Assembly: GCA_002257045.1 (NCBI GenBank)
Contig: NCHD01000002.1
Coordinates: forward strand, 1-46,173
Direction of reading: 5' to 3'
From: Hydrogenophilales bacterium 16-61-112
GTDB taxonomy: Bacteria > Pseudomonadota > Gammaproteobacteria > Burkholderiales > Thiobacillaceae
DNA length: 46,173 bases
Positions 20,398-41,940 of the stretch are shown here, piece by piece. Each line of letters begins with the position of its first letter. Positions within the stretch are counted from its first letter, which is position 1. The position numbers and the translations under genes are program-made. The notes under the pieces were generated by a model. It worked only from the letters and a program-made list of their open reading frames with translations. It did not search any database and was not told where the DNA came from.

Positions 20398-20504
20398 TCA
20401 GGATGCCGTCAAAATGGGACAACTGTCAGGTCTGAACTTCTACATATCAGTGAAGCGCGATCATCGACCCGTCACTTCTTTTTACCCAACTTTGGAGTTC
20501 ACTT

Positions 20505-21026
20505 ATGAAATCACTGAAAAAGTCTTACGCAGGTCTCGTTCTTTTGCTGGCCGGTTTTACGACGGCCCATGCTGCGGGTGACATCGGGCACGCCGAAGCT
20601 ACGCCGCAATTGTCCACCATGAGTGCGGAGCAAAAGAAGCAGGGGCAGCAATATTTCACGGCGCATTCTTTCGAGTTTTCTTCGATATTCAAGCGCCATC
20701 ATCCTGGTCCCTACTGGATATTGGAGAAGACGAAAGAACTTCAATTGTCCGGCGAGCAGATCAAACAGCAAGAAGATTTGAAAAATGGCATGGCCAAAAG
20801 TACCCTTTCCGGCAACGCCGTGCTAAAAAAAGCATACGAAAAATATGCTTCCGACGCTTCTGCAACAGAGCCGTCGCTTGCGGTTATCAAGCAAGACATC
20901 GAGGCTATCGGCAAGGCTCAAACCCATCTTGCGCTGGTGATGGTGCCCTATCACCTGAAAGCGTACGCGGCATTGAATCCCGCGCAGCAGACGCTTTACT
21001 GGCAGTTGGTGGCGGCGCAACCGTAA
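20505..21026 (+). CDS. Periplasmic Spy/LTXXQ-like protein
   Basis: A 173-residue protein with signal peptide MKSLKKSYAGLVLLLAG to AHAAG. The mature part is helical and has LTXXQ-like repeats (LQLSGEQIKQQEDLKNG near the middle, LNPAQQTLYWQL at the end) as in Spy/CpxP periplasmic chaperones and metal-stress proteins. Start has GGAG 8 nt upstream. Function is inferred from family only. A second LTXXQ protein is at 36233. Confidence 0.65.
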   Translation: MKSLKKSYAGLVLLLAGFTTAHAAGDIGHAEATPQLSTMSAEQKKQGQQYFTAHSFEFSSIFKRHHPGPYWILEKTKELQLSGEQIKQQEDLKNGMAKSTLSGNAVLKKAYEKYASDASATEPSLAVIKQDIEAIGKAQTHLALVMVPYHLKAYAALNPAQQTLYWQLVAAQP

Positions 21027-21324
21027 GGAACCTTAAAACCACCGGTTCAATTCCCCGGGCGTCGATTTTTCCTGGGCGTGAATGCCGATCCGTGAACCGG
21101 GGCTCAAACGCTACGCAACATGAGCCGGCGCTACCGGACATGTCCTTTCGTAATCCTGCGCGTGCCAACTCACCGATTTCATTCGCGTAAGTTTTTTGCG
21201 GTATGTGGGATAGCGAACAGACCCTCTCCGGATGGCTCCACGATAATCGGGCCGGTTACGATGAAGAATGAAACGCGTGCGTTTCGTTTTCCTGATGTCG
21301 CGTGTTGTCGCTCACAACACTTAT
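21027..21324. other. Gap of about 300 bp without a supported gene
   Basis: Lies between the Spy-like gene and the DsrE relic. I see no gene-like frame with a ribosome-binding site; a short stretch near 21260-21300 may be the former 5' region of the duplicated DsrE gene. Confidence 0.35.
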
Positions 21325-21500
21325 AAGGCCTGGGGCTGTTCTTGAAGACTAACGAAGCGATGCGGAAGCGGCTGCAACCAATCTCAAGCATGAACGTGAA
21401 GAGCGAAGCGCTGATGCCGTTCGCCACAACGGTCGATTCAGGCGTGGCTGAAATGGTGGCAGGCAGCAACCCGATGGTCGTATATAAACCAGGTTCGTAA
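21325..21500 (+). pseudogene. Decayed partial duplicate of the DsrE-like gene
   Basis: The DNA matches the 3' two thirds of the DsrE-like gene at 20041 (both share AAGGCCTGGGGCTG, then similar bases to the final GTAATCAG). It carries an internal deletion of roughly 45 bp that removes the GCENTM cysteine region, plus frame-breaking changes. No open frame remains. It ends just before the DUF202 gene. Confidence 0.7.
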
Positions 21501-21512
21501 TCAGACACTGTC

Positions 21513-21920
21513 ATGACTCAGCAACCGCAGCAAGCAACAATAGGCGAAGCAAAACGGGCAACCGAATATCTTGCCAATGAACGGACTTTTCTGGCGTGGA
21601 TCAGGACGAGTCTTGCGATCATCAGCCTCGGCTTTGTCGTGGCGAAGTTCAGTGTGTGGTTGCGCGAGCTGGCGGCGCAGCTTGCCCCACAGATTCAGAC
21701 TTCCCAGACGGGAGCTTCGATGCCGATCGGTGTGACGATGATGGCGCTGGGCGGAGTACTGGCCGTGCTGGCGGCGTGGCGTTATCACGTAGTGAATCGC
21801 GCCATTGAGAATGGCGTCGTCAGTGCCGATCGCGGACTCGTCATTCTCGTCACCGTGATGGTCGCCTTGCTTTGCGCGGCGATGATCGTTTATATGCTGC
21901 TCGCCGCGCAGCATGCGTAA
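21513..21920 (+). CDS. DUF202 (YidH-type) inner-membrane protein
   Basis: A 135-residue protein with the DUF202 signature ATEYLANERTFLAWIRTSLA near the N-terminus, followed by three membrane helices (IISLGFVVAKFSVWL, MPIGVTMMALGGVLAVLA, VILVTVMVALLCAAMIVYML). Function unknown. First gene of the thiosulfate-oxidation operon; 20 bp separate it from the cytochrome c4 gene, and no terminator lies between. No strong ribosome-binding site is seen. Confidence 0.85.
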   Translation: MTQQPQQATIGEAKRATEYLANERTFLAWIRTSLAIISLGFVVAKFSVWLRELAAQLAPQIQTSQTGASMPIGVTMMALGGVLAVLAAWRYHVVNRAIENGVVSADRGLVILVTVMVALLCAAMIVYMLLAAQHA

Positions 21921-21940
21921 GCGGGATTGAAGGATTTATG

Positions 21941-22603
21941 ATGCGCTCCGTTCCCACTCTTGTCCTGTTATCCAGCCTGGGTCTGACGTTTTCTGCCACG
22001 GCCCAGACTGCGCGCGCCGATGGCGCCACCATTGCGCTGCATGGCAATGCGCGCGGCGCACCGGCCTGCGTGACCTGCCATGGCGCACAGGGTGAAGGCA
22101 TGCCGGCGAATGGCTTCCCCCGGCTCGCCGGACTCAATGCCGGATATCTGCAGACACAGCTGGATGCGTTTGCCAACGGTCAGCGCGCCAATGCCATGAT
22201 GACGCCTATCGCGCAGACCCTGAGTGTGGATGAGCGCGCCGAACTCGCCCGCTATTACGGCGGACTGGGCGGATCGACCGCGGCGGTGTCCGTGCCCAAT
22301 CCCGATTCCGCGGGGGCGCGGCTGGCCCTCAAAGGCCGCTGGTCGCACGGTCTGCCAGCGTGCGTGCAATGTCATGGCGCAACCGGCGCCGGCGTCGGCA
22401 CTGTTTTTCCAGCGCTGGCCGGGCAGTCCGCGCTGTATATCGAAAATCAATTGCGCAACTGGCAGCAAAACACGCGCCCCCCCGGCCCGATGGGGTTGAT
22501 GAAAACGATCGCGTCCAAACTGTCCGCCGCAGATATCCAGTCGGTTGCCGCGTATTTTGCAGCGCTTCCGGCGGGCGGCCCTGTTCCGGAGAGCACACCA
22601 TGA
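21941..22603 (+). CDS. Dihaem cytochrome c4-type protein (possible TsdB)
   Basis: A 220-residue periplasmic protein: signal peptide ending near ATAQTARA, then two similar cytochrome c domains with CVTCH (Cys43-His47) and CVQCH (Cys141-His145), each followed by GA.G.G and a distal Met candidate (NAMMTPIAQTL, GPMGLMKTIA). In thiosulfate dehydrogenase systems a dihaem c4-type protein (TsdB) accepts electrons from TsdA. The gene overlaps tsdA by ATGA, which supports that role. ATG 21941 is 6 nt from AAGGA; ATG 21938 is too close. Confidence 0.85.
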   Translation: MRSVPTLVLLSSLGLTFSATAQTARADGATIALHGNARGAPACVTCHGAQGEGMPANGFPRLAGLNAGYLQTQLDAFANGQRANAMMTPIAQTLSVDERAELARYYGGLGGSTAAVSVPNPDSAGARLALKGRWSHGLPACVQCHGATGAGVGTVFPALAGQSALYIENQLRNWQQNTRPPGPMGLMKTIASKLSAADIQSVAAYFAALPAGGPVPESTP

Positions 22604-23616
22604 AGACCCGGACATCGGTGGCCTTGACCGTCGGCATCCTCACCCTTGCTGCGGGGCTCATCGTCGTGGCGGCGCAAGGCGGGCCCGCCGCGACGGTGCT
22701 GGCGAAGACCGAAAAACCGGCTCTGTCAGCCAAGCCAACACCCACGACCTCACCCGCATCGTCTGCGACCCCAACCGCCAAAACCGCCCCCTTATTCCAG
22801 CCGCCGTCTGAACAGGACATGCCCAAGGACGAGTTTGGCAAAACCGTGAAAATGGGCCAGGATATTTTCGAGCACACCGAACGCTACGCGAGCCAGTATG
22901 TCGGCAAAAATTCCAGTCTCAATTGCAGCAGCTGTCATCTGGACGGGGGCCGTCTCGCCCATTCCGCGCCCTTGTGGGCCGCTTATGTGAGCTACCCGGC
23001 GTATCGCAGCAAGAACAAGCACGTCAACACCTTTCCTGAGCGCCTGCAGGGCTGCTTTAAATACAGCATGAACGGCAAGGCGCCGCCGCTCGGCGATCCG
23101 GTGCTGGTAGCGCTGGAAAGCTATGCGTACTGGCTGGCGAGCGGCGCGCCGATTGATCCCAAAATCGCCGGCCGCGGCTATCCCAAGGTGCCGAGTCCGC
23201 CCCTGCCCAGAGACTATGCGCGCGGCCAGCAGGTGTTTGAGCAGCACTGCGCGGTATGCCACGGCGCCGACGGCGCAGGCCAGCCGGACGCGAACGGGCA
23301 ACCCAATTTTCCCGCGCTATGGGGCGCTAAATCCTTCAACTGGGGCGCGGGCATGGGTAGCCTGAAAAATGCTTCGGGCTTCATCAAGGCCAATATGCCG
23401 CTCGGTTTGGGGGGTAGCCTGAGCGACCAACAGGCCTGGGATGTGGCGACATTTATGAACAGTCACGAACGCCCGCAAGACCCGCGTTTCAAAGGCTCGA
23501 TAGCGGATACCCGTGCCAAGTATCACGACTCGCCTGACGACCTGTACGGGACCACGGTGAATGGCCAGCTTCTGGGTCAAGGCACGCCACCGGATAGTCA
23601 GGGAGCAAAAAAATGA
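22600..23616 (+). CDS. tsdA: Thiosulfate dehydrogenase TsdA (dihaem, tetrathionate-forming)
   Basis: A 338-residue periplasmic protein with an N-terminal signal or anchor and a Pro/Thr-rich linker. Haem 1 site is NCSSCHLDGG (Cys109-His113) and haem 2 is CAVCHGADG (Cys217-His221). Between them is the TsdA core SYPAYRSKNKHVNTFPERLQ followed by GCFKYSMNG; Cys152 there is the expected unusual Cys ligand of haem 1. The second domain has SFNWGAGM and IKANMPLG. TsdA joins two thiosulfates into tetrathionate and releases two electrons. The gene overlaps the cytochrome c4 gene and ccoN by ATGA on both sides, which ties it to the oxidase. Confidence 0.9.
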   Translation: MKTRTSVALTVGILTLAAGLIVVAAQGGPAATVLAKTEKPALSAKPTPTTSPASSATPTAKTAPLFQPPSEQDMPKDEFGKTVKMGQDIFEHTERYASQYVGKNSSLNCSSCHLDGGRLAHSAPLWAAYVSYPAYRSKNKHVNTFPERLQGCFKYSMNGKAPPLGDPVLVALESYAYWLASGAPIDPKIAGRGYPKVPSPPLPRDYARGQQVFEQHCAVCHGADGAGQPDANGQPNFPALWGAKSFNWGAGMGSLKNASGFIKANMPLGLGGSLSDQQAWDVATFMNSHERPQDPRFKGSIADTRAKYHDSPDDLYGTTVNGQLLGQGTPPDSQGAKK

Positions 23617-25109
23617 GCGAACCGCGCGACGTTGCGGGGGCCACGCATCAGGCCGGTCACGAGGGGGGTCCCGCGCTGAGCTTTGTTGCGGGCGCCCCGG
23701 TGGTGTCCGTGGAAACCGGGCTGATACGTGCCCACGCTTTCGCCGCGCTGGCCTGTTTGATGATCGCGGCGTTGTTTGGCACGGTCGTCGCCATCAAGCT
23801 GGTGCAACCGGATTTTCTCAGCGGCCAGGTGTGGACAACCTGGGGCTCGATGCGCGCCAATCACACCCAGGGCATTCTCTTCGGCTGGCTCGGCAATGCG
23901 TTCATGGCATTTCTTTATTTTGCGGTTCCGCGCCTGGGGAACCGCGCGGTCATGAGCCGTCGCCTCGGCTGGGTGCTGTTTGTGCTGTGGAACGGGGGCG
24001 TGGTGCTGCTGGGATGGGTCGTCGTCTCGATCAACCTGCCCGGCTTTTTATGGGCGATCAAACCGCTGGAATGGACGGAATTTCCGCTGGCAGTCAATTT
24101 CGTGACCGAGCTATGCCTGCTGTTGATGGCCCTGCAATTCATCCCGCCATTGGCGCGCAAGCCCAATACGGACGGCATGTATGTCTCGTCCTGGTACATC
24201 ATTGGCGGGCTGGTGTTTACCGCGCTCGCTTTCCCGGTAGGCAGCCTGGTGCCGCAACTGGTGCCGGGCGCGATGGGCGCTGCCTTCAGCGGGCTGTGGA
24301 TACATGATGTAGTCGGGCTTTTTGCCACGCCGTTTGCGCTCGCCATGGCGTTTTATGTGTTTCCGGTGCGCACCGGGCAACCCATCTACAGTCATTTCCT
24401 GTCGATGATTGGTTTCTGGCTGCTGTTTTTTTCCTACCCGCTCAACGGCACCCACCACTACGTTTACTCGTCCATTCCGATGGATACCCAGCGCGCCGCC
24501 ATCGCCGCGTCGATCATCATGGGGTTCGACGTGATGCTCGTCGTATTCAACCTGCTGATGTCGCTGCGCGGTCAGGCTGCGCGGGTCAGGCACGATGTCC
24601 CGCTGCGCTTTGTATGGACTGGCGTGGTGTTCTATCTGGTTGTCAGCCTGCAGGGTTCGCTGCAGGCCATCATGCCGATGCAGCGTTACGTTCACTTTAC
24701 CGACTGGGTGATTGGCCACTCGCATCTGGCGATGCTGGGTTTCGCCAGCTTCGTGACCCTGGGCGGCATTGCCCACCTATGGGAACGCACGCGCGGCTGT
24801 CGCTACCACCCGGGCTATATGAATCTCGCTTACTGGCTGATTCTGGGAGGTTTGACGATCATGTTTGTCGATCTGACCGCAGCAGGTCTGCTGCAGGGAA
24901 AACTATGGAACAGCGGCGCCGCCTGGATGGAGTCAGTGCGTGCCTCACAGGCTTATTGGCTGGTGCGCGCCGCCTCCGCAGTGCCCATCCTGCTGGGGTT
25001 TGCGGCGTTCATCGCCGGCATGCTGGGCAACCCCGGCCAACGTCGCGACAGGGTCGGCCAGCCCATGCCCGTTGCGGGCACACCCGCACCGCAAGCCAAT
25101 CATGGTTGA
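23613..25109 (+). CDS. ccoN: cbb3-type cytochrome c oxidase subunit I
   Basis: A 498-residue membrane protein of the haem-copper oxidase C family: haem b ligand region RANHTQGILFGWLG, CuB His in LWIHDVVGLF, helix VII Tyr in AFYVFPV, CuB His pair in NGTHHYVYSS and the haem ligand pair in GHSHLAMLGF. It reduces oxygen to water and conserves energy. It is divergent from standard CcoN. Start overlaps the tsdA stop (ATGA), and the end overlaps the next gene by 8 bp. The NO reductase alternative is unlikely (see rejected items). Confidence 0.85.
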   Translation: MSEPRDVAGATHQAGHEGGPALSFVAGAPVVSVETGLIRAHAFAALACLMIAALFGTVVAIKLVQPDFLSGQVWTTWGSMRANHTQGILFGWLGNAFMAFLYFAVPRLGNRAVMSRRLGWVLFVLWNGGVVLLGWVVVSINLPGFLWAIKPLEWTEFPLAVNFVTELCLLLMALQFIPPLARKPNTDGMYVSSWYIIGGLVFTALAFPVGSLVPQLVPGAMGAAFSGLWIHDVVGLFATPFALAMAFYVFPVRTGQPIYSHFLSMIGFWLLFFSYPLNGTHHYVYSSIPMDTQRAAIAASIIMGFDVMLVVFNLLMSLRGQAARVRHDVPLRFVWTGVVFYLVVSLQGSLQAIMPMQRYVHFTDWVIGHSHLAMLGFASFVTLGGIAHLWERTRGCRYHPGYMNLAYWLILGGLTIMFVDLTAAGLLQGKLWNSGAAWMESVRASQAYWLVRAASAVPILLGFAAFIAGMLGNPGQRRDRVGQPMPVAGTPAPQANHG

Positions 25110-26376
25110 GATCACACCCGATCAAACCCGGTCAGCGCCCAGGCACTGGTACGGCCTGGCCTATCTGCTCGTCTTCGTCGCGGGGGTGGGATTTTTTCTG
25201 CTCTCGTTCATTGCGCTGGGGGTTCTGCCGGGATTGCGCCTGGCCGACACGATCGCTTCTCCTGCCCAGGCGGACATGCCGGATTACACGGCCGCCGAAC
25301 TTCGCGGCCGCCGCGTCTACGCCAGTCTGGGCTGTGCGTTGTGCCACACGCAGCAAGTACGTTTTCTACCCGTCGATGTGCGCCGCTGGGGTGCACCCAC
25401 TGCAGCGTGGGAAACGCGTTACGACTTTCCGCAACTGTGGGGTACGCGCCGTATTGGCCCCGACCTGGCACGCGAAACCAGCGTTCGCAGCGACGACTGG
25501 CAACTCACTCATCTGTACAAGCCGCAATGGGTTGTGCCGGGTTCCGTGATGCCGGCTTTCCCCTGGTTGTTCGACGGCCGCGCGGATCGTCCCACTGCGG
25601 CGGCCTCCGACCTGCTGGCCTACTTGCGCACGCTGGGACGTGCGCAACAGCTGGGCGCAGGCAAGGGCGTGAACGCCAGCCTTGATACCGGCATGGATCC
25701 GGTGATGTTGATGGAAATCACGAATTTATGTGCTGCGCCTTTTATCAATCCCAATCAGGCTCGCGTCGATGATTCCGCACCCGATCGGGTGCAAGCGGCA
25801 GCCGGGCGCGACCCGCTATTCGCGCGCGGCAGCACGCTGTTCGCACAAAATTGTGCGGGATGCCACGGCGCCACTGGCGATGGGAACGGCCTTGCCGCAT
25901 CCGGTCTGTCGCCCAAACCCAAAAATCTGCGTCAAACTCAATTTTCAACCCAGGGATTGGCTCACATCTTGTGGAACGGCGTAGCCGGCTCGGCCATGCC
26001 GGCCTGGCGTGATTTGTCCACGCTCGATCTTGCCAGCCTGACGACCTACGTACAGTCGCTGCATCCCGCTTCTGTCGACCCGGCGCAAGCTCCCGCATCC
26101 ATCCTGGCGCATGGCGCTGCGGTTTATGCAAGCAACTGTCTGAGTTGCCACGGCGCGCAAGGCCAGGGCAACGGTCCGGTCGGCTTGCTGCTCTTGCCTC
26201 GACCCGCGAATTTCACCGCCATGCAACCCGACACGACTCGTGTGATTCAGGTGCTGAACGAAGGGATTCCGGGCACCGGCATGCCGCCGTGGCCGGGCCT
26301 GGCGCCGGCAGACAAACAGGCGGTGGCTGCATTCGTGCGCACCCTGTACAAATCCAAAGCGGAGCAAACCCCATGA
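25102..26376 (+). CDS. CcoO-CcoP-type fusion: triple-haem cytochrome c oxidase subunit
   Basis: A 424-residue protein with one N-terminal membrane helix (LAYLLVFVAGVGFFLLSFIA, residues 19-38) and three haem c sites. CALCH (78-82) lies in a CcoO-like domain (GRRVYASLGCALCHTQQ, WGTRRIGPDL, distal Met in VMPAFPWL). CAGCH (251-255) and CLSCH (346-350) lie in two small CcoP-like domains with GSAMPAW and GTGMPPW as distal Met sites. In usual cbb3 oxidases CcoO (one haem) and CcoP (two haems) are separate proteins. It hands electrons from cytochrome c4 to CcoN. It overlaps both neighbours by a few bases. Confidence 0.85.
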   Translation: MVEITPDQTRSAPRHWYGLAYLLVFVAGVGFFLLSFIALGVLPGLRLADTIASPAQADMPDYTAAELRGRRVYASLGCALCHTQQVRFLPVDVRRWGAPTAAWETRYDFPQLWGTRRIGPDLARETSVRSDDWQLTHLYKPQWVVPGSVMPAFPWLFDGRADRPTAAASDLLAYLRTLGRAQQLGAGKGVNASLDTGMDPVMLMEITNLCAAPFINPNQARVDDSAPDRVQAAAGRDPLFARGSTLFAQNCAGCHGATGDGNGLAASGLSPKPKNLRQTQFSTQGLAHILWNGVAGSAMPAWRDLSTLDLASLTTYVQSLHPASVDPAQAPASILAHGAAVYASNCLSCHGAQGQGNGPVGLLLLPRPANFTAMQPDTTRVIQVLNEGIPGTGMPPWPGLAPADKQAVAAFVRTLYKSKAEQTP

Positions 26377-26609
26377 TTGCAGCGATTGTCGGGGCGATCA
26401 TTCTCATCGTGCTGGCGCTCGTTATCGTGTGGTATTACTCGCCCGCATTCCGGGTTTGGACCGAGAAACCCAAATACACCATGCTCGAACGCGATGCCCT
26501 GTTTGAGCGCACGGGCATAGGGAATCGATTGCCGACAGCAAACATCGAAAAGCTGGATGGGTTAAACGATATGAAAAACAAAGGAAAGCATGATGAAAAC
26601 CGGTATTAA
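26373..26609 (+). CDS. Small single-helix protein, possible oxidase subunit
   Basis: A 78-residue protein starting with one membrane helix (MIAAIVGAIILIVLALVIVW) and a charged cytoplasmic tail. It has no match to a named family that I can support, although CcoQ/CcoS-like small subunits have a similar layout. ATGA overlap with the fusion subunit and 20-bp overlap with tetH place it in the operon and suggest that it belongs to the oxidase complex. Confidence 0.65.
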   Translation: MIAAIVGAIILIVLALVIVWYYSPAFRVWTEKPKYTMLERDALFERTGIGNRLPTANIEKLDGLNDMKNKGKHDENRY

Positions 26610-28128
26610 TTTAGCACTGAGCATCGCACTGGTATTTTCTGGAGCTGGGGCCGCCCAAGCCCAAGCCCAAGCCCAAGCCCAAGGCAAATTGAATAAAAGC
26701 ACGGATACCCCGGTCGAAAAGGGGGGTCCATACGACCGGGTCTATTATCCGGAAAATGCACCCGCTCCGGGTGAAGGCGCTGCCTTCCCTCAAGAGTGGT
26801 TATATGCGTATGGCAACACGGAGCGGAATGCGGCGGCACCCAAGGTACCGAGTAGCGCGCCGGCCTGGATCAGGGAAGGGGTTTCCTGGCAGTTCGCCGA
26901 GGCGCGCTCATGGCCGCTAGCCAATAAGCCCTTCGCGAGTGAAGCGATAGGTGAAGCCAGCGGTGATACCACCATGACCCAGTGGATGGGAAATGCGCTG
27001 GGGGTGACCGCGGTCGATGGCATTGTTTACGCGCAGAGCGACGATCAGTTTATCTATGCAGTGAATGCCCGTACCGGCAAGCTCATCTGGCGCACCAGCC
27101 CGGTTGGCAGTACCTTCATGGGGCAGCCACTGGTGCAGGGAAATATCGTGTATGTAAATGCCGGTACCGTGGGCTTCAACTTCTCCAATGTGCAGGCGTT
27201 TGCCAAAAAAGGCAGCGCTGTCCGGGGAGCGGGGGTCGAGTTCAACGGCATCTATGCGCTGGACAAACGCACAGGCGAACTGCTATGGCATTTTGATACC
27301 AAAGGCGATGTGATGCCTACACCTGCAATCAGCGACGGACAACTTGTTTTCTCTACCGGTTCCGGTGATATCTATGCACTCGATGCAAAATCGGGCGAGC
27401 AACGCTGGGTGAACAAGGTAGGCGGGATGGGGAATATGTCGAGTCCGGCCATATACAAAGGCAAGATTTACGTGGGCATGTCCGTGCCAGCCTATCTGTT
27501 TTGCCTGGACGCCACCACAGGCAAAACCTTGTGGAAAGCGCAGATACCCAAAGCCATCAATACAGGGATAGGCGATGTCTCTCCTGCTGTTTCGGATGGC
27601 GTTGTAGTGATCGATGCGATATCAGACCTGAAAACAGTCAATGGCAAAGATACAGTGGATGTCACCGTCGGCGCGTTTGACAGCACGAGCGGAAAGCCGC
27701 TATGGACGCATAAAATGGGACGCGGCAGCAAGCCGCCAGCCTTTAAGGGTGGCGTTCCGATGATTCATGACGGTATCGTTTATGTCGGTGCCCCGGTCCA
27801 GAGTATTTATCAGGCGCTAGACCTGAAAACCGGAAAACCGCGCTGGACATGGTCGGTGCCAAAACCCGGTCCCGCTGGTGCAGGACGCGGTCCGGCTACT
27901 TATTATGATGACATGTTGTACATATCCACCTCAGGCACGGTCTACGCCGTCAATCCCAAGACCGGCATACTCGCCGGTCAAAAGGATATCGGCGGCCGTT
28001 TTGGCATTGTCAGTCCGACGATTGTCGGCGGCACGATGTATCTGGGAAATTCGTGGGACTGGATCATCGCCCTCCCTGTTTCTGAAGTAACGGCGAACGG
28101 CGCGCAGAAAAAAACAGGCCGCCAGTGA
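26590..28128 (+). CDS. tetH: Tetrathionate hydrolase (PQQ-like beta-propeller)
   Basis: A 512-residue secreted beta-propeller with segments that match acidithiobacilli tetrathionate hydrolase as I remember it: SWQFAEARSWPL, TTMTQWMGNALGV, GIGDVSPAVSDGVVVIDA, PAFKGGVPMIHDGIVYVG and the final YLGNSWDWIIALP. TetH hydrolyses tetrathionate to thiosulfate, sulfate and sulfur outside the cytoplasm. Repeats of the type ALD..TG...W are propeller blades, as in PQQ dehydrogenases, but it sits beside tsdA. The signal peptide contains a run of Ala-Gln pairs. The start has an AAGGAAAG site and overlaps the previous gene. Last intact gene of the operon. Confidence 0.8.
   Translation: MMKTGINLALSIALVFSGAGAAQAQAQAQAQGKLNKSTDTPVEKGGPYDRVYYPENAPAPGEGAAFPQEWLYAYGNTERNAAAPKVPSSAPAWIREGVSWQFAEARSWPLANKPFASEAIGEASGDTTMTQWMGNALGVTAVDGIVYAQSDDQFIYAVNARTGKLIWRTSPVGSTFMGQPLVQGNIVYVNAGTVGFNFSNVQAFAKKGSAVRGAGVEFNGIYALDKRTGELLWHFDTKGDVMPTPAISDGQLVFSTGSGDIYALDAKSGEQRWVNKVGGMGNMSSPAIYKGKIYVGMSVPAYLFCLDATTGKTLWKAQIPKAINTGIGDVSPAVSDGVVVIDAISDLKTVNGKDTVDVTVGAFDSTSGKPLWTHKMGRGSKPPAFKGGVPMIHDGIVYVGAPVQSIYQALDLKTGKPRWTWSVPKPGPAGAGRGPATYYDDMLYISTSGTVYAVNPKTGILAGQKDIGGRFGIVSPTIVGGTMYLGNSWDWIIALPVSEVTANGAQKKTGRQ
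26653..26682 (+). repeat. Five tandem GCCCAA hexamers in the tetH signal peptide
   Basis: GCCCAA is repeated five times without error and encodes Ala-Gln pairs at the signal-peptide end of TetH. Slippage would change the spacing of the cleavage site in steps of two residues without breaking the frame. Confidence 0.85.
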
Positions 28129-28193
28129 GTTTGTTACGAAGGGGTGTCAGTCCAAGAGCCTGCTCATCCCGACTGTTTACTTGAGAGTGTGTG

Positions 28194-28957
28194 ATGGAAA
28201 TCTATCTACCCACCGAGGCGAATAGCCTAAATAGCGCAGACCAACTTTACGATATCCCCGCTTTTGGCAACGCCAGTCTGTTGCATTTCACCGACTGTCA
28301 CGCCCAGCTGCTACCCATCTATTATCGCGAACCCAGCATCAACCTTGGCGTAGGCAGCGCTGAAGGGAATGCGCCGCATCTTGTCGGCAAACCGCTGCTG
28401 GATGCGTATGGAATCAAGGCCGGCAGCCGGCAGGCCTACGCGTTTTCGCATCTGGATTTCTGTGCGGCGGCGCGGGCCTACGGCAAGGTGGGCGGCTTCG
28501 CGCATCTCGCAACGCTGGTCAAGCGGATGAAGGCCAGCCGTCCCAAGGCCTTGTTGCTCGATGGCGGGGACAGCTGGCAAGGGATCGGCCACGGCATTGT
28601 GGACGGCCGGGCAGGACATGGTCGAGGTCTCGCTGGCTTTAGGCGTCGACGTCATGACCGGCATTGGGAGTTCTCACGGCGTCGAGCGCGTCCTGCAGGT
28701 CGTGCGCAATGACTTCAAGGACAAGCTTGCCTTCATTACCCAGAACATCGTGCACGAAGACAGCGACGCCCCGTGTTCGATGCGTGTGTCATGCGTGAAC
28801 AGAACGGCATTCTGGTTGCCATTATCGGCCAGGCGTTTCCCTTACACGCCCAAGGCGAACGGCATGCAATTCACCCCAGACTGGGCATTCGGGATTGATG
28901 AAGCGCGCCTTCAGGTGGTGGTCAACGAAGTGCGCAAAAAAGGGGCGCAGGTTTGGG
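28194..28957 (+). pseudogene. soxB: Decayed soxB copy 1 (5' part), lost 3' end
   Basis: In frame from 28194 the DNA encodes unmistakable SoxB: LYDIPAFGNASLLHFTDCHA, LLPIYYREPSINLGVG, AYGKVGGFAHLATLVKRMK and LLLDGGDSWQG. The usual Tat signal is missing; the sequence starts MEIYLPTEAN. About base 28580 one extra base shifts the frame (compare copy 2), and several small deletions follow around 28660-28780. Homology to SoxB ends at about 28952, where IS3-like DNA takes over. Bases 28376-28952 are repeated at 33476-34053. SoxB hydrolyses the sulfate group from SoxY-bound sulfur in the periplasm; this copy cannot be made whole. Confidence 0.9.
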
Positions 28958-28991
28958 TGCGGCGGGTGCGCCGCGCCGATTTCTTGACCAT
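28958..28991 (-). mobile_element. N-terminal fragment of an IS3-type transposase OrfA
   Basis: On the minus strand an AAGGAG site and ATG 28991 open MVKKSARRTRRT, the first residues of an IS3-family OrfA as I remember it. It then runs straight into the decayed soxB copy. Only the first dozen codons remain. The fragment marks the right end of soxB copy 1. Confidence 0.5.
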
Positions 28992-29020
28992 CATAAACTC
29001 CTTCTCGCCAGGCTGTTTCC

Positions 29021-29083
29021 AGCCCAGCATCATGCCCGGAGTTTCCACTTATAGCGTTGTGCAGACTTGCGGAGCCACTTCTG
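29021..29083 (-). repeat. 63-bp inverted repeat X (partner at 33023-33085)
   Basis: Reading plus, bases from AGCCCAGCATCATGCCCGG to CACTTCTG match the reverse complement of 33023-33085 without gaps, with roughly seven substitutions in 63 bp. It lies directly upstream of the OrfA fragment and looks like an insertion-element end. Together the two copies bracket the NHL and SoxB-like genes. Confidence 0.75.
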
Positions 29084-29518
29084 GCAGCAGATGGTTTACA
29101 AAATGTTTTCTAAATTACTGACTTATGAGTAAGGGTTCTTTTTGTTGGCAGGGGCCTGAGGGTGTCGGGATTTTTTACACTTGATTCCTTAGCTGCGCCT
29201 CAATCATTGTCAAAAAATATTGTAAATGCCTGATTGTAAATTGAATTATTAACATGAAATAATTTTGGCACGATACGTGCTTAGTTATTTGAATTAGAAA
29301 ATAATAGAATTCAAACATACTAATATTGTTTGACTTACATTTCTAATTATGGGCCGGTTGTGGGCCGGCTGGTGGCAAACGAAAGGCGATACGTGGAAAA
29401 ATCCTGGTTGATCTAAACGTCCAATCTTGTAAAAGACCACAATTTACTTAAGCGTTTTTAACTGTGAGTGATTGGAAAAAACGTTTTATAACAACTTTTT
29501 ATAGCGAAGGAGAGAGGA
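29084..29518. other. AT-rich 435-bp leader region without a gene
   Basis: Base composition here is clearly more AT-rich than on either side (runs such as TTATTTGAATTAGAAAATAA). No gene-like frame is present. It contains the sigma-54-type promoter at 29266-29281 and ends in the AAGGAG site of the NHL gene, so it seems to be a long regulatory leader. Confidence 0.6.
29266..29281 (+). promoter_or_regulatory. Sigma-54-type promoter candidate for the NHL/SoxB-like pair
   Basis: TGGCACGATACGTGCT fits TGGCACGNNNNTTGCW with one mismatch and the exact GG-N10-GC spacing. Transcription would begin near 29293 and leave a leader of about 225 nt before ATG 29519. Sigma-54 promoters need an activator, whose sites would lie farther upstream, near or in the soxB relic. 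Confidence 0.6.
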
Positions 29519-31006
29519 ATGAGCATGAATGACAATGTAAAAAAAGTGGGTAATCCATTTTCCGTATCACGACGTGACCTTCTAAAAGGAGCGGGCGGCT
29601 TAGGGGCTGCCGCTTTGGCAGCGCCATTCATCGGAGCGGGTACTGCGCTTGCCCGACCCGTGCAAGAGGATGAGTCTGTTCCATTTGGCATGAACGAGAA
29701 TTTTGGTTTTCCTCAGCCAAAAAAACAGAGTGAGATCTGGTCGGTGGACTACGCGGGTAATCTCTGGCCCGGCATGCGTAACGGCCCCGCCCTTTTTGCG
29801 ATGTTCCACCCCGCGACCGGAATCCATATCGAAGACGATGGCTCGCTGAAGGTTGCCGATGCGCGCAACTCGGTTATCCGCAACATCTCCAATTTAGGCG
29901 ATGTGACCATGTTCAGCGGCAGTTCGCAGCAGTATCCATTCAAAGACGGTGCTGCAACTGTGGCGACCTACAACAGCCCCAACGATATCGACAAGCTCAG
30001 TACCGGCAACTACGTGGTGGGCGACCGTGAGAACAATGCCATTCGGCTGGTCATGGCGGACGGATCGGTCAAGACCATTGCCGGGCAAGGCAACTGCAAA
30101 AGCAAATACAACGGCGATCAAGTCGATGCCCGTCTGGCCCAACTCAATCGCCCGTTGACGCTGAGCGTGGCCGACCAGGCTACCGCGTGGCACACGCAAG
30201 ACACGGTGTACTTTGCAGACCGCGACAACTTCCTGATTCGCAAACTGGTGCCCAATGGCGACGGCACCTGGTCGCTGGTCACCGTTGCGGGCGTCCCCCC
30301 CACACCCGGTGCCGACCCTTGCGGTCCGCTGACGTATTACCCTGGTGCAACCAATGGTCCGGTGGCGCAGGCAAAATTCCGCGGTCCTTGCGGCCTAGTT
30401 CTGAGTGACGACGAACGTTATCTGTATGTTGCCGAGCGCGACAATAACGTCGTACGCGTGATTGATCTGATGATGGGTGTGGTCGGTACCTACGCCGGCG
30501 TGGTGATGGTTGGTCAGGGCAAGGGCGGTTATCAGGACGGCCCTGCTGCAACCGCGTTGTTCAATGGCCCCTCCCAGATCGATTCGGATAGCAGCCGTAA
30601 TCTGTATATGGCGGACCGCTTCAACCATCTGATTCGCAAGATCACGCCGAGCGCCGACCCGATGAAAGCCTCGATGGTGCAGACATACGCAGGCGTGCCG
30701 ATGGAGAGCGGGCGGCATAGTGGTCCGGCATTGAAGGCGAAGTTTTACGAGCCTTGGGGTCTGTCGGTTGACCGCAACAGCGGACTGGTGTTTGTCGGCG
30801 ATACCGGCAACAGCCGCGTCGCGGTGATCGGCCCCTTCAACCTAATCTGGGACGCTTTCGTCGAGCGCATCAATACCGCACGGATTGCCGAATACCAGTT
30901 GCTGATGGCGGAATATATGGACTTCTACCGTGGCAGCCCAGAGCGTAATGCGAAGCGGAATCCATACACCGGTGAAGGTCTTCCTGGACCCAGTGACGAC
31001 CTTTAA
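29519..31006 (+). CDS. Tat-exported NHL-repeat beta-propeller protein
   Basis: A 495-residue protein with a twin-arginine signal (SVSRRDLLKGAGGLGAAAL, cleavage near ALA). The mature part is made of NHL-type blades: ADARNSVIRNI, GDRENNAIRLVMADGSVKTI, FADRDNFLIRKL, VAERDNNVVRVIDL, MADRFNHLIRKI and VGDTGNSRVAVIG. Tat export implies folding in the cytoplasm, often around a cofactor, but no cofactor site is evident. Cysteines are few. AAGGAG lies 6 nt before ATG 29519. It precedes the SoxB-like gene by 143 bp and probably shares its promoter. Function unknown; a periplasmic partner of the SoxB-like protein is an inference. Confidence 0.75.
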   Translation: MSMNDNVKKVGNPFSVSRRDLLKGAGGLGAAALAAPFIGAGTALARPVQEDESVPFGMNENFGFPQPKKQSEIWSVDYAGNLWPGMRNGPALFAMFHPATGIHIEDDGSLKVADARNSVIRNISNLGDVTMFSGSSQQYPFKDGAATVATYNSPNDIDKLSTGNYVVGDRENNAIRLVMADGSVKTIAGQGNCKSKYNGDQVDARLAQLNRPLTLSVADQATAWHTQDTVYFADRDNFLIRKLVPNGDGTWSLVTVAGVPPTPGADPCGPLTYYPGATNGPVAQAKFRGPCGLVLSDDERYLYVAERDNNVVRVIDLMMGVVGTYAGVVMVGQGKGGYQDGPAATALFNGPSQIDSDSSRNLYMADRFNHLIRKITPSADPMKASMVQTYAGVPMESGRHSGPALKAKFYEPWGLSVDRNSGLVFVGDTGNSRVAVIGPFNLIWDAFVERINTARIAEYQLLMAEYMDFYRGSPERNAKRNPYTGEGLPGPSDDL

Positions 31007-31149: not shown

Positions 31150-32943
31150 ATGAAAAACAAGCAACCCTCACAAAAAACGCTTTTCGCGCTCATGCTGGCG
31201 ACTTGCATGCTGCCCGCTACGGTCACCCCTGCATTGGCCACTACCGACGCAGCGATGATGACCAGCGCCAACCGGCAGGCGGAAGCCGACAAAAACAGAG
31301 TCACCAACCTGACCCTGCTGCAGACCGGCGACATCCACGGCCATATGATCCCGCGTCCGTGCCTGCGCTGCGATGACGAGCCAATGCTGGGCGGCCTAGC
31401 CTACATGTACACCAAAATCCAGCAGGTGCGCGCGACGAATGCAAACACCTTGCTGTTCAATACCGGCGACACCATCCAGGGAAGCGCGGAAGCCCTGTTC
31501 ACCAAGGGCCAGGCATTGGTCGACGTGCTCGACCAGTTTGGCTATGACGGCTATGCACCGGGCAACTGGGATTACGTTTACGGCATCGACCGTTTCCTTG
31601 AGCTTTTCGGCAATAACCGCTGGGGCGGCGTCGCAGCCAACGTGTATTACGACGAAATAGTCTATCCCGAAAAGGCCGGTCAGACCTTGCTGCCACCCTA
31701 CCGCATCCTGACGGTCGACGGCGTCAAAATCGGGCTGCTCGGTCTTTCGAGCGAACGCGCCATCAATGCGCTCGGCCCCTGGGTGACCAAGGGGATCAAG
31801 TTCACGTCCGATGGCGCTGAATTGCCCGGCTACATCGACACCTTGCGCAATACCGAGAAAGTCGATTTGATCTTTCTGGTATCCGAATTCGGCTTGGCGA
31901 AAAACGTCTATTTCGGCGAGAACTACGATGGTATCGACGTCATTATGTCGTCCGACATGCATGAAGAAACGCCCGAGCCGGTCGTCACGCGTAACGGCAC
32001 TATCGTGACCGAAGTGGGTCAGGACGGCACCCGTCTGGGCCAACTGGACCTGAAGCTAAAAAACGGCAAAATCGTCAAGTGGGACTACACTTTCCACACG
32101 ATCGATACGCGCAAAATCAAGCCCGACGCGAAAATTGCGGCGATCATCAAAAATGAGCGCAAGGAATTCGTCGCATCGAAGTTCTTTAAAACGCACGTCA
32201 ATCCCTTTAACGGCGCACTCCTGAAAACCCCGATCGACACCGTAGTCGGCACGGCGGAGATCGGTCTGCATCGCAGCAACTTCACCGATACGAATATGTC
32301 GGCCAGCGTCGAAGGCACCTCTTCCGATTTCCTGGCGGATGCATTCAAGACCGAAGCCGGTGCGGATGTCGGCCAGATTCGCGGATTCCGCTATGGCACG
32401 AATATCAAGCCGGGTCCGATCAAGCTGGAAGACCTGTATCACTTCATGCCGATCGGCGCCCAGATTGCAAACGTGACCGTCACCGGGCAAGCCCTCAAGA
32501 ACCAGCTCGAAGGCAGCGCCAACGGCTCGTTCAACCCGGACGTGTTTGCCTGGACCGGCGGCTGGCTGAATGGCTACAGCGGCCTGAAGTTCGATCTCGA
32601 CGTCTATGCTTCGCAGGGTAAACGTATTCAGAACCTGAAAATGTTCAACCGCCAGACCGGCGCGTATGAGCCGATCGACCCGACCGCCAGCTATGTGTTT
32701 GCCGGCTACTGGTATGCCCAGAACCCGCTGGATGTAGGTGGCGTGAAAGCGACCACGACGGTAACGCCGATTAAGGGCGCGAATGGTGAGACGCTGGATG
32801 CGACTGAACTGGTGGTCAATTATCTGAAGACGCATACCGCCAATCCCGAGTTGAACCGCATCAATCTGGTTGCGCCTTTGCCGGCACCTGTTTACGGCAA
32901 TCGTGAAGAGCAGCCGTTGAAAGGTGTATCTACAGCGTATTAA
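31150..32943 (+). CDS. Divergent SoxB / 5'-nucleotidase-family metallohydrolase, Sec-exported
   Basis: A 597-residue protein with a signal peptide (LFALMLATCMLPATVTPALA), a metallophosphatase domain and a C-terminal 5'-nucleotidase domain. Motifs: GDIHGH, NTGDTIQGS, GNWDYVYG (Trp where nucleotidases have His, as in SoxB HWEF), LVSEFG where SoxB has LLSHNG, and SSDMHEETP where SoxB has GGHTHDGVP. The C-terminal GFRYGTNIKPG matches SoxB GFRWGTTLLPG. It is therefore of SoxB descent, but two metal-ligand positions read Glu and Asp. A Cys pair (RPCLRCDD) is extra. ATG 31150 follows AAAGGA by 7 nt. Substrate unknown; it lies between two dead soxB copies. Confidence 0.75.
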   Translation: MKNKQPSQKTLFALMLATCMLPATVTPALATTDAAMMTSANRQAEADKNRVTNLTLLQTGDIHGHMIPRPCLRCDDEPMLGGLAYMYTKIQQVRATNANTLLFNTGDTIQGSAEALFTKGQALVDVLDQFGYDGYAPGNWDYVYGIDRFLELFGNNRWGGVAANVYYDEIVYPEKAGQTLLPPYRILTVDGVKIGLLGLSSERAINALGPWVTKGIKFTSDGAELPGYIDTLRNTEKVDLIFLVSEFGLAKNVYFGENYDGIDVIMSSDMHEETPEPVVTRNGTIVTEVGQDGTRLGQLDLKLKNGKIVKWDYTFHTIDTRKIKPDAKIAAIIKNERKEFVASKFFKTHVNPFNGALLKTPIDTVVGTAEIGLHRSNFTDTNMSASVEGTSSDFLADAFKTEAGADVGQIRGFRYGTNIKPGPIKLEDLYHFMPIGAQIANVTVTGQALKNQLEGSANGSFNPDVFAWTGGWLNGYSGLKFDLDVYASQGKRIQNLKMFNRQTGAYEPIDPTASYVFAGYWYAQNPLDVGGVKATTTVTPIKGANGETLDATELVVNYLKTHTANPELNRINLVAPLPAPVYGNREEQPLKGVSTAY

Positions 32944-33206: not shown

Positions 33207-33479
33207 CTAGTGCCCTCTGGGTATTAGGATTTCGTTCTCCCGTATAAGCCGGAGGTTCTCGGCGCGTACACGGGAAAGCTTCATTTGCTCCGGCGTGACC
33301 AGCTTGGCGCCCGCCCCCTTAAGCGTGCCTGCTGCTGCCGCCTTGACCCCATTACGCAAAGTCTGCTCAATCAACCCCAGTTCACGGGCTGCTGCGCCTG
33401 CTGTCAGTCCGTCTATCTTGCGCTTGACTGCCAGTAACTTGAACTCGGCGGTGTATTCCTGCTTCTGTATCCGCTGCAT
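33207..33479 (-). mobile_element. IS3-family OrfA relic, truncated at the 3' end
   Basis: From ATG 33479 on the minus strand: EYTAEFKLLAVKRKIDG, AAARELGLIEQTLRNGVKAA, GAKLVTPEQM and VRAENLRLIRENEIL, the helix-turn-helix and leucine-zipper part of IS3-type OrfA. The reading then changes to PRGH and stops, so the end and all of OrfB are missing. The Trp of the usual NWVK motif is Gly here (NGVK). Its first bases abut soxB copy 2 at 33476, so this insertion removed the 5' end of that copy. Confidence 0.75.
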
Positions 33480-34951
33480 CTTGTCGGCAAACCGCTGCTG
33501 GATGCGTATGGAATCAAGGCCGGCAGCCGGCAGGCCTATGCGTTTTCGCATCTGGATTTCTGTCGGCGGCCCGCGCCTAAGGCAAGGTGGGCGGCTTCGC
33601 GCATCTGGCAACGCTGGTCAAGCGGATGAAGGCCAGCCGTCCCCAGGCCTTGTTGCTCAATGGCGGAGACAGTTGGCAAGGCTCGGCCACGGCGTTGTGG
33701 ACGGCCGGGCAGGACATGGTCGAGGCATCGCTTGAGTTGGGCGTCGATGTCATGACCGGGCATTGGGAGTTTACCCACGGCGCCGAGCGCGTCCTGCAGG
33801 TCGTGCGCAATGACTTCAAGGACAAGCTTGCCTTCATTGCCCAGAACATCGTGCACGAAGACAGCGACGCCCCGGTGTTCGATGCGTATGTCATGCGTGA
33901 ACAGAATGGCATTCCGGTTGCCATTATCGGTCAGGCGTTTCCCTGCACGCCCAAGGCGAACGGCGCGCAATTCACCCCGGACTGGGCGGTCGGGATCGAT
34001 GAAGCGCGCCTTCAGGCGATGGTCAACGCGGTGCGTGCCAAAGGCGCGCAGGTGGTCGTATTGCTAAGGTATGGCTATCGACCTCAAACTGGCGGCGCGC
34101 ATTTCCAGGATCGACATGATATTGGGCGGACATACCCACGACGGCGTGCCGGTGCCCAGCGTGGTCAAAAACCCCGGCGGGGCAACCGTCGTCACCAACG
34201 CCGGATCCCACGGTAAATTTTTGGCCGTGATTGATTTCGACGTCAAACAGGGCCGTGTGGCCGACTATCGATACCACCTGTTGCCGGTCTTCTCGGAACT
34301 GCTGCCTGCCGATCCCGCCATGCAGGCAACCATAGCTCGGGTGCGCGCGCCATTCGAATCGCGGCTTCAGGAACCGATTGCCGAAAGCCAGCAACTGCTT
34401 TATCGGCGCGGTAATTTCAACGGCTCCTGGGACCAGTTGATTGTCGATGCCCTGATGCAGGTCAAGAGCGCATAGATTGCCTTCTCCCCCGGTTTTCGTT
34501 GGGGCACCACGCTCCTGCCCGGACAAACGATTACCCGCGAACATTTGATGGAGCAGACGGCAATCTCTTACCCCAATACCTCGGTGGTGGAAATGACCGG
34601 CACCAAAGTCAGGCAACACCTGGAAAACTTTGCGACATGATTTTCAATGACGATCCCTATCAACACCAGGGAGGTGACATGATGCGTACCGGCAGACTGG
34701 TGTATACATGTGAACCCGCAAGCAAAATCAATTCGCGCATCAGCGACATGAGCTTGAACGGACAGCCGATACAAGCCGACAAGTCCTACAAAGTGGCGCG
34801 ATGGGGGGTGGGCAGCGCGCAATCGGAGGGTGAACCGGTGTGGGACGTGGTTGAGCAGTATCTGAAAAGCGCCCCGGTTGTTAAAAACCACACGCCCAAC
34901 GTACCGCGATTGATAGGCGTGGGTGCAAACCCGGGATTCGCCAATGAGTAG
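33476..34951 (+). pseudogene. soxB: Decayed soxB copy 2 (3' part)
   Basis: SoxB sequence from LVGKPLLDAYGIKAG to the natural end (NVPRLIGVGANPGF, stop 34949-34951). It is broken by at least five lesions: loss of the 5' end to the IS3 relic; a 1-bp deletion near 33565 and a TAA soon after; a deletion of about 8 bp near 34065 that removes the SHNG metal-ligand motif (LLRYG instead); a TAG at 34474 (VKSA*IAFSPGF); and a 1-bp deletion near 34632. Intact motifs include GHWEFTHG, GGHTHDGVPVP and GFRWGTTLLPG. The end overlaps the DUF1566 start. Bases 33476-34053 repeat copy 1. Confidence 0.92.
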
Positions 34952-35969
34952 TCAGCGCCTGACCGCTTGCCGTTATCTGCATACCGGCCAACGCACCTGC
35001 CATGCCGACGATGGACGCGAGCTTGCCTGCGCAGGGTCCGGCCAGGACGCCTCGTTTGCAGTCGGCATGCCCTGGCCGGAACCGCGTTTCGAGGTGCGCG
35101 ACGACGCGGTCATGGATCGTCTGACCGGCCTGATCTGGTGTCGCAACGCCAACCTCGCCGAGTTTCCGCTCAGCTGGCAGGAAGCACTCGATTTCGTCGC
35201 GACCATGAATCGCGAACAGCGGTTCGGCCAGCGCGACTGGCGCATGCCCAATCGCCGCGAGTTGCGCAGTGTGCTCAGCCTGCAAACCCGATTGCCTGCG
35301 CTGCCCGAGCGACACCCGTTCGTCGATGTGTTCAACGGCTGGTACTGGACGTCGACCACGGCGGCCATCAGCCCGGCGCACGCCTGGTATGTGGCGCTCG
35401 ATGGCGCGCGCATGTTTTACGGCGGCAAGGATCAATCCTTCATGCTGTGGCCGGTACGCGGCGAAGGCCTGGGCGTAGTCCCGCGCACCGGCCAAAGCCT
35501 GTGCTACGACACCGCCGGCAAAGTCATTTCATGCGCCGGGACGGGGCAAGACGGCGAAAGGCGTATCGGCGCGCCGTGGCCTGAACCTCGTTTCGAAATG
35601 CGCCCAGCCGGCGTCCTGGATCGACTCACCGGCCTGCTCTGGCGCCGCAACGCGAACCTCACCCCGCATCCGGTGCGATGGGATGAGGCATTGGCAACCG
35701 TGGCCAAACTCAACCAGGCAGGCGAGGGCAGTGACTGGCGTCTGCCCACCATCAACGAACTGGAGTCGCTGGTGGATTGTGCCGCCCACAGCCCGGCCTT
35801 GCCGTCCGGGCATCCGTTTGCCGATGTGCAGGATATTTACTGGTCCTCAACTACAAGCCTTTTCGAGCCTGATTGGGCCTGGGCGCTCTACCTGGAAAAG
35901 GGCGCGACGGGTGTCGGACAAAAGCGCTTTGCACAATTCTCGGTATGGGCCGTTGCCGCTCTTGATTAA
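34944..35969 (+). CDS. Two-domain DUF1566 (Lcl-type) protein
   Basis: A 341-residue protein made of two similar halves. Each has W.EPRFE.R, DRLTGL.W.RNANL, an HP/Phe and Trp-rich middle (DWRMPNRRELRS and DWRLPTINELES), then YW(T/S)STT and a C-terminal VWA/WPVRG strand: the DUF1566 pattern. There is no signal peptide. The fold is C-type-lectin-like; function unknown. ATG 34944 overlaps the soxB relic stop (ATGAGTAG), so it was once translated in series with soxB and may now be poorly coupled. GTG 34923 is an alternative start. Confidence 0.7.
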   Translation: MSSQRLTACRYLHTGQRTCHADDGRELACAGSGQDASFAVGMPWPEPRFEVRDDAVMDRLTGLIWCRNANLAEFPLSWQEALDFVATMNREQRFGQRDWRMPNRRELRSVLSLQTRLPALPERHPFVDVFNGWYWTSTTAAISPAHAWYVALDGARMFYGGKDQSFMLWPVRGEGLGVVPRTGQSLCYDTAGKVISCAGTGQDGERRIGAPWPEPRFEMRPAGVLDRLTGLLWRRNANLTPHPVRWDEALATVAKLNQAGEGSDWRLPTINELESLVDCAAHSPALPSGHPFADVQDIYWSSTTSLFEPDWAWALYLEKGATGVGQKRFAQFSVWAVAALD

Positions 35970-35979
35970 ATCAGGTTCA

Positions 35980-36105
35980 TTACTTTTTACGCATGACAAC
36001 GACAATTACGGCAATAACCAAAATCACGACCAGAACCATCCATAATCCGCCCGATCCACCCATGTAACCCGTTCCCCAGCTTCCGGTCCAATCACCTTGC
36101 ATCAT
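35980..36105 (-). CDS. Small membrane protein, 41 residues
   Basis: Starts MMQGDWTGSWGTGYMGG, then one helix (LWMVLVVILVIAVIVVVM) and a basic end (RKK). Gly/Trp-rich N-terminus plus one helix is a common layout for small metal- or stress-related membrane proteins. The GAGG site lies 8 nt from ATG 36105; ATG 36111 is too close. It converges on the DUF1566 gene. Confidence 0.65.
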   Translation of the reverse strand: MMQGDWTGSWGTGYMGGSGGLWMVLVVILVIAVIVVVMRKK

Positions 36106-36232
36106 GCTCATCACCTCGCGACTTCATTGATTTACGATGGATTGGAATCCGGAAAAATTGCGCAACGCGAGCGCTCATTTTCAGGATCCTTTCGTAGCCC
36201 GTAGCGGCCGGCTACCGGGTAAGCAACGGTTA

Positions 36233-36721
36233 TTACATACGAGCCATATGACTCATTTGCATCTTGTCGAAGGTCGCTTGTTGTTCGGCTGTAAGCGTGG
36301 CGTAGAAGGTTTTGACGGCGTCTGCCATTTTGGCCATGTTTTGCGCCCGGTTTTCCATCAAATCCGCCATCTTCGCCATCCGTTCCGGCGCGGTCTTCTT
36401 CGGCATGGACTGGGCGGTGTCCTTCATCTGATCCCGCATGGCCACCATGTTTTTAGCTTGATCGTTTACTTGATCGGAGAATGTCTTCCAGGCCGGTTTC
36501 TGATCTGCGGTGAGATTCAGCTTGGCATTCAGCTCACTTAAGTTTTTATGTGCGCGGGCAACGGGATCCATCTTCATGTCGCCTGACATCATGCCCATGC
36601 CGTTACAGTCCATTCCAGCGTGATGCGGACCCATTTTCGTACCAGATCCGGCGGCCGTTGCGAGGCTCACTGCAAACAGTGAGGAAACCAGTCCCAACGT
36701 GAGTTTGGTATGCAGTTTCAT
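36233..36721 (-). CDS. Periplasmic Spy/CpxP-like (LTXXQ) protein
   Basis: A 162-residue protein: signal peptide MKLHTKLTLGLVSSLFAV to LATAAG, a Met/His/Gly-rich stretch (KMGPHHAGMDCNGMGMM, possibly metal-binding), then a helical part with two LTXXQ motifs (LTADQKPAWKTF, LTAEQQATFDKM). Family members act as periplasmic chaperones or metal-stress sensors. Start: AAGGAG lies 7 nt from ATG 36721 (4 nt from ATG 36724). Operator candidate D is 163 bp upstream. It forms a pair with the 41-residue membrane protein downstream on the same strand. Confidence 0.8.
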   Translation of the reverse strand: MKLHTKLTLGLVSSLFAVSLATAAGSGTKMGPHHAGMDCNGMGMMSGDMKMDPVARAHKNLSELNAKLNLTADQKPAWKTFSDQVNDQAKNMVAMRDQMKDTAQSMPKKTAPERMAKMADLMENRAQNMAKMADAVKTFYATLTAEQQATFDKMQMSHMARM

Positions 36722-36881
36722 CATCAATCTCCTTAAAGTGTTTTGGATCGTGTGGACACCAGCAAGGTGGCAATAGGCCCCTTGATGTTTGCTATCGGTA
36801 GCCGGTTATCAGCATAGTCATGCGAGATATCCGGTTCATCCGGTTAGCAATTTAAGTTTCGCGTCTGAAGCCGACCTGCGT

Positions 36882-36899
36882 CTGTGCGTCAACGCACAC
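36882..36899. promoter_or_regulatory. Operator candidate D, upstream of the Spy-like gene
   Basis: GTGCGTCAACGCAC at 36884-36897, preceded by CT, fits the shared motif with arms GTGCG/CGCAC. It lies in the 304-bp gap between the SRPBCC gene and the Spy-like gene; I see no other feature in that gap. Confidence 0.5.
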
Positions 36900-41914: not shown

Positions 41915-41940
41915 TTGCCACTCTCCATCACCGGGTCGTT

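Follow-up and report, generated by a model that had tools for sequence, protein, structure and literature searches.

Can a single compact block of genes encode a route for electrons from thiosulfate to oxygen? The question is raised by a stretch of 46,173 nucleotides from Hydrogenophilales bacterium 16-61-112 (contig NCHD01000002.1; the whole stretch is hereafter the window), in which seven consecutive open reading frames (ORFs) on the + strand at 21513-28128 encode, in order, a DUF202 protein, the cytochrome TsdB, the thiosulfate dehydrogenase TsdA, the oxidase subunit CcoN, a CcoO-CcoP fusion (CcoO-P), a small membrane protein and the tetrathionate hydrolase TetH. On the evidence of sequence comparison, we consider it likely that this operon provides a short periplasmic electron path that starts from thiosulfate, runs through TsdA and then TsdB to the operon's own oxidase and ends at oxygen, bypassing quinones, with TetH recycling the tetrathionate. 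TsdA would join two thiosulfates to form tetrathionate and pass the electrons to TsdB, a c4-type dihaem protein, which would deliver them to the haem-c domains of CcoO-P; CcoN would then reduce oxygen to water, so that the electrons would go through neither the quinone pool nor bc1. Tetrathionate would be cleaved by TetH to thiosulfate, sulfur and sulfate, which would keep the product from accumulating and supply TsdA with thiosulfate again.

The original prediction held that the seven genes overlap or lie within 20 bp of each other, and both coordinates and order proved correct. DUF202 and TsdB are separated by 17-20 nt, depending on the TsdB start, and the remaining junctions are overlaps of 4 (ATGA), 4 (ATGA), 8, 4 (ATGA) and 20 nt in turn. 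The same gene order was sought elsewhere, and tsdB-tsdA-ccoN-ccoO(P) recurs in five genomes besides the window. CcoN orthologues (76-80%) were found at E 1e-60 in three genomes (G582, G647 and G819) out of 18 in one genus, and two of these had first been detected among 399 genomes of the order; others are present in the contigs L094 (Rhodocyclaceae fen_999) and L095 (NC_groundwater_933) of named metagenome-assembled genomes. The contig scan for CcoN relatives used two short peptide patterns, returned three loci and missed G582 and G647, and so is not exhaustive; since all six genomes were chosen by their CcoN, the finding that every one of them keeps the order presupposes its presence.

The TsdB/TsdA overlap is ATGA in all six genomes, and the TsdA/CcoN junction is likewise a 4 nt overlap in each, reading GTGA in L070 and ATGA in the other five. 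L095 carries the same seven genes as the window with TetH first (TetH-DUF202-TsdB-TsdA-CcoN-CcoOP-small protein), L070 and L094 read TsdB-TsdA-CcoN-CcoOP-small protein-soxB, and L080 reads TsdB-TsdA-CcoN-CcoO up to the contig end; the small protein is present in all five genomes whose sequence reaches it, the window included. Ratios of nonsynonymous to synonymous substitution (dN/dS, Nei-Gojobori) were 0.08-0.20 in 19 comparisons of the window with its relatives, covering six of the seven genes, although single values are rough given synonymous distances of 0.7-1.9. Excluded from these counts were the small protein, the interrupted L069 ccoOP, the cut L080 CcoO, the L080 TsdA and the L094 TsdB; for some relatives the ORF was read from a start further upstream, and only aligned codons were counted. 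Five successive overlaps, an order common to five other genomes and purifying selection in 19 comparisons place the block beyond chance, and the tsdBA-cco core appears to be a functional unit that has been conserved. The seven genes are predicted to be read as one transcript.

Several observations weigh against the electron path and its encoding in one operon. A promoter scan found no promoter-like site upstream of the block, and the number of terminator-like matches across 20400-29600 on both strands (14, against a mean of 9.9 and a standard deviation of 3.4 in shuffles) was not clearly above expectation, some of the matches lying inside the block. TsdA enzymes are reversible. The order in L069 is TsdB-TsdA-CcoN, then a ccoOP split by inserted DNA, then the small protein. 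TetH, with DUF202, adjoins the unit in only two of the six genomes, last in the window and first in L095 (NC_groundwater_933), and no TetH match at E 1e-30 was obtained in two of the six, G582 and the L094 genome (G824), the latter of unstated completeness. The window's genome holds two additional tsdBA pairs, for which the stretches inspected contain no oxidase gene. Thiosulfate did not raise tsdAB in Sideroxydans (PMC8788666). Finally, AvTsdA is given Lys208 at a position where the window TsdA has Asn, as does CjTsdA, which reduces tetrathionate (PMC5146829).

The last of these points bears on the direction of TsdA (22600..23616, +). The protein matches the TsdBA fusion 5lo9 at E 4.8e-82 and 4wqc at E 2.1e-47, and scores 27.6 bits against PF21342 (cut-off 27). 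It has two c haems, with CxxCH at 109 and 217, and putative distal ligands Cys152 at haem 1 and Met266 near haem 2, aligned with 5lo9 and 4wqc; the roles of the haem-1 Cys and haem-2 Met in TsdA are described in PMC5146829. The Asn directly precedes Met266, and might suggest that the enzyme runs backwards as a tetrathionate reductase, but the row of MpTsdBA carries the identical Asn, the window TsdA is joined to an oxidase that requires reduced cytochrome, and TsdB is present here while it is missing in C. jejuni (PMC9774590). We regard reverse operation as very improbable.

TsdB (21941..22603, +, with an alternative ATG at 21938) has two CxxCH motifs and adjoins tsdA, as expected of a c4-type dihaem partner; among PDB sequences it best matches the TsdB half of 5lo9 (residues 5-192, E 5.6e-38), and it matches cytochrome c4 6q2u at E 3.3e-28. 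The c4 sequence is also listed under PDB entries 8smr and 8snh, which contain cbb3 subunits and are presumably c4-cbb3 complexes. TsdB is described as taking electrons from TsdA, and as a possible donor to haem-copper oxidases, cbb3 among them (PMC9237845, PMC9774590). From sequence we infer that TsdB passes its electrons to the oxidase of this operon and that TetH works with the other products. Alternatively, the oxidase could be fed by general cytochromes c, such as the output of bc1, its linkage to tsdBA reflecting joint regulation only. The tsdBA pairs elsewhere in the genome, with no oxidase gene in the stretches inspected, would fit such an arrangement, as would reports that c4 proteins are cbb3 donors in several bacteria (PMC9237845); against it stand the 4 nt overlaps and the order kept in six genomes, together with a similar ccoN-O-P-tsdB-tsdA block in another genus, and we consider it unlikely. 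One of the two additional pairs (L042 2126-3933 and 8702-15222, G000:C116) is found close to a SoxB-like protein sharing 55% identity with that of the window and to two TetH-like proteins of double length (1015 and 1107 aa, ~30% to TetH), and the other (L149 7985-9525, G000:C195) lies ~8.5 kb from a soxB over its cut-off.

What kind of oxidase, then, stands at the end of the chain? The family calls of the original prediction (TsdA, c4, CcoN, a triple-haem CcoO-CcoP fusion and TetH) were checked with Pfam, NCBIfam and PDB sequences and upheld by the matches and CxxCH counts. CcoN (23613..25109, +; PF00115, 214 bits) appears to be the catalytic subunit of a cbb3-type (C-family) haem-copper oxidase: H84, H231, Y275, H281, H282, H369 and H371 are common to all CcoN rows in the alignment, and all of these except H84 were aligned with 3mk7, so that CuB histidines, haem histidines and helix tyrosine are all present. 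Its partner (25102..26376, +) is a single chain with a mono-haem CcoO part (FixO, 126.6 bits against a cut-off of 29.6) and a dihaem CcoP-like part (two cytochrome CBB3 stretches); it has three CxxCH motifs (78, 251, 346), one hydrophobic stretch and a match to 3mk7_B at E 2.7e-30, and a structure prediction from four sequences gave no usable model, with a mean predicted local distance difference test (pLDDT) score of 40. The NCBIfam cut-offs for the canonical subunits were missed (ccoN 156.3 against 583.15, ccoO 110.2 against 200.65, ccoP 64.9 against 179.95), and the oxidase is therefore classed as a divergent variant and not a canonical member. In the tree the window CcoN falls in a six-member branch of its own (support 100/100), whose grouping with other N/O-P fusion oxidases has support of only 90/88; NorB, L067 and L077 form long branches.

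Such divergence, with ~25-28% identity to canonical CcoN in tblastn rows and an NCBIfam ccoN score of 156 bits where the cut-off is 583, could be taken to indicate a nitric oxide reductase or another enzyme that reduces something other than oxygen. This was rejected on residues and partners: the window CcoN keeps the tyrosine and the HH motif, whereas the genome's own NorB has Thr in the tyrosine column, the FixO partner scores above its cut-off, and a PDB search with CcoN returns cbb3 at E 3.9e-36 against NorB at E 3.4e-5. The chance that this is a nitric oxide reductase thus seems slight, and CcoN/O-P is predicted to reduce oxygen.

TsdA was found at E 1e-45 in 39 of 369 genomes of the class (own genome included), at 45 places, and 41 of the 44 places outside the window were examined, the own C116 copy among them and the weaker matches in G295, G340 and G448 left out. 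An oxidase subunit I gene lies near TsdA at three of these (L130, L131 and L155); at the other 38, which include the two further tsdBA pairs of the window's genome, no haem-copper oxidase subunit I gene was present in the fetched 5.7-20 kb. By our own estimate, about four subunit I genes per 3 Mb would yield roughly one TsdA-oxidase linkage by chance, and two of the three linkages come from one genus, so that weight is to be placed on overlaps and order and not on the count. L130 and L131, from two species of a genus different from that of the window, read ccoN-ccoO-mono-haem cytochrome-tsdB-tsdA; three of the junctions are overlaps of 4 nt, and the fourth is a gap of 8 nt. The L130 CcoN has a FixS-like start, its ccoO product is FixO, and its TsdA matches that of the window at E 6.2e-80 while scoring just below the PF21342 cut-off (26.6 bits against 27). 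Since the CcoN of this block belongs to a different supported branch of the tree from that of the window, the coupling of tsdBA to a cbb3 oxidase probably arose more than once. In the third linkage (L155 4746-9322) a canonical ccoN-ccoO-ccoP set follows TsdA on the same strand after ~460 bp, and no TsdB was seen in the stretch.

The step from thiosulfate dehydrogenase to oxygen, with TsdB as cbb3 donor, is stated as a possibility in PMC9237845. A donor enzyme, its carrier and an oxidase encoded as one overlapping unit, and paralleled in another genus, give genetic support to that proposal, and the operon is a compact system in which the route becomes testable. What is new here is a divergent cbb3-type oxidase tied to a thiosulfate dehydrogenase; the components themselves are known, and a literature search, judged from titles and abstract openings, recognised no description of a tsdBA-cco-tetH operon. 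More speculatively, TsdA, TsdB and CcoN/O-P might associate physically in a single thiosulfate:oxygen oxidoreductase complex, which would bypass quinones and would have arisen at least two times from different oxidase subfamilies; together with TetH and DUF202, it might constitute a cyclic module that burns tetrathionate, with thiosulfate as both the product of TetH and the fuel of TsdA.

How firmly TetH belongs to the unit is a separate matter. TetH (26590..28128, +) is a beta-propeller of the PQQ-repeat type that matches AfTTH (6l8a) at E 8.4e-162, and Asp329 in its GIGD motif matches AfTTH Asp325, a numbering verified from the only cysteine, Cys301, found at position 272 of the chain (offset 29); the catalytic role of Asp325 and the chemistry of the enzyme are given in PMC10859504. 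It is conceivable, though in our view the weaker reading, that the real unit consists of TsdBA and the oxidase, and that TetH was placed beside them by rearrangement and works independently. The unit lacks an adjoining TetH in L069, L070 and L094; relative to L070 and L094, in which one long soxB frame follows the small ORF, the window tetH sits between the small ORF and soxB; and in G819 (L080) a TetH (82-83%) followed by soxB lies on a different contig (L089) from tsdBA-cco. Yet TetH in L095 stands at the opposite end of the block, also with DUF202, and two different adjacencies are less likely without shared use; the dN/dS of TetH is 0.08-0.10 (two comparisons). TetH is accordingly a recurrent but optional partner of tsdBA-cco. 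Of the single coupled module first proposed, the overlapping TsdBA and cbb3-type oxidase stand in six of six genomes, with a similar unit in L130/L131, whereas TetH as a fixed member does not. To call it self-contained was also too strong, because the sulfur released by TetH must be used elsewhere, by other enzymes; beyond its further tsdBA pairs, the genome has two other cbb3-type ccoN genes and two soxB genes that are intact and exceed the family cut-off.

G647, a genome of two contigs in which the unit is not interrupted, has a TetH-like gene (L090 9232-10775) 0.9 Mb away from tsdBA-cco; it is split between two frames that overlap (419 and 95 aa) and is ~57% to the window TetH. The insertion of ~2.4 kb in the ccoOP of L069 (10794-13665, G582) has matching ends that overlap by 11 bases, as target-site duplication would produce, and one of its ORFs is integrase-like by eye.

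The two genes left without identity in the original prediction are probably accessory or assembly membrane proteins. The DUF202 protein (21513..21920, +; PF02656, 68.3 bits) has three hydrophobic stretches, and its homologue between TetH and TsdB in L095 is 64.7% over 119 aa. The small protein (26373..26609, +) has one hydrophobic stretch and matches no family of Pfam or NCBIfam at E 0.001; a comparable reading follows ccoOP in L069, L070, L094 and L095, its N-terminal ~50 aa are conserved, and it is probably an accessory subunit of the oxidase.

Downstream of tetH, and outside the working unit, lies a broken soxB remnant (28191..29121, +) with partial matches to TIGR04486. A second remnant at 33473-34947 has overlapping coverage, and between the two are an NHL-repeat protein with a twin-arginine (TAT)-like start (29519-31006) and a SoxB-like 5'-nucleotidase (31150-32943). 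In three other genomes (L156, L163, L164), a homologue of the window gene at 19969 lies ~2 kb beyond tsdBA, with a SoxB-like gene after it.

Among the 369 genomes of the class, the best CcoN match outside the own genome is 35% at the E 1e-45 limit; CcoO-P has a best match of E 1.8e-34 (self 4.2e-293) among 100 relatives, 55 of the same genus, and the oxidase branch is absent from the 55 same-genus genomes searched. With no close match to its oxidase in same-genus relatives, the unit was probably acquired by transfer, or else retained by few. A misbinned contig was judged unlikely: the flank at 35000-46173, the one flank compared, has up to 92% DNA identity to same-genus genomes against up to 87% to the operon-sharing genus, among the matches listed for 21 chosen genomes. 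A tRNA search for an island end found none within the window.

Set beside known systems, the components are familiar and their combination differs. With characterised TsdBA (the fusion of Marichromatium purpuratum, 5lo9, and tsdBA of Halomonas titanicae, PMC9237845) the window pair has in common a TsdA with a Cys-type haem 1 and a c4-type TsdB partner, while heading an overlapping block with its own oxidase. The oxidase shares CcoN catalytic residues, a FixO domain and further haem-c domains with cbb3 oxidases (3mk7, 8smr), and differs in that its CcoO and CcoP parts are fused, with one hydrophobic stretch in the fusion. The S4-intermediate pathway of Acidithiobacillus (DoxDA and TetH; PMC6335251) likewise has an AfTTH-type TetH and a tetrathionate intermediate, but the window has TsdBA where Acidithiobacillus has the quinone-linked DoxDA, and no match at E 0.001 to DoxD, of the DoxDA that marks the classical pathway, was found in the window's genome (94.35% complete). 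A further comparison is a cluster in G456 (L041 5168-12343), in which a tetrathionate-forming enzyme, TetH and an oxidase are also neighbours; there the oxidase is a quinone-linked bo3-type quinol oxidase, DoxDA is divergent, and TetH, in two frames, lies ~0.45 kb upstream of the oxidase genes. Compared with the quinone-based DoxDA/TetH route, the window block looks like its c-type cytochrome counterpart.

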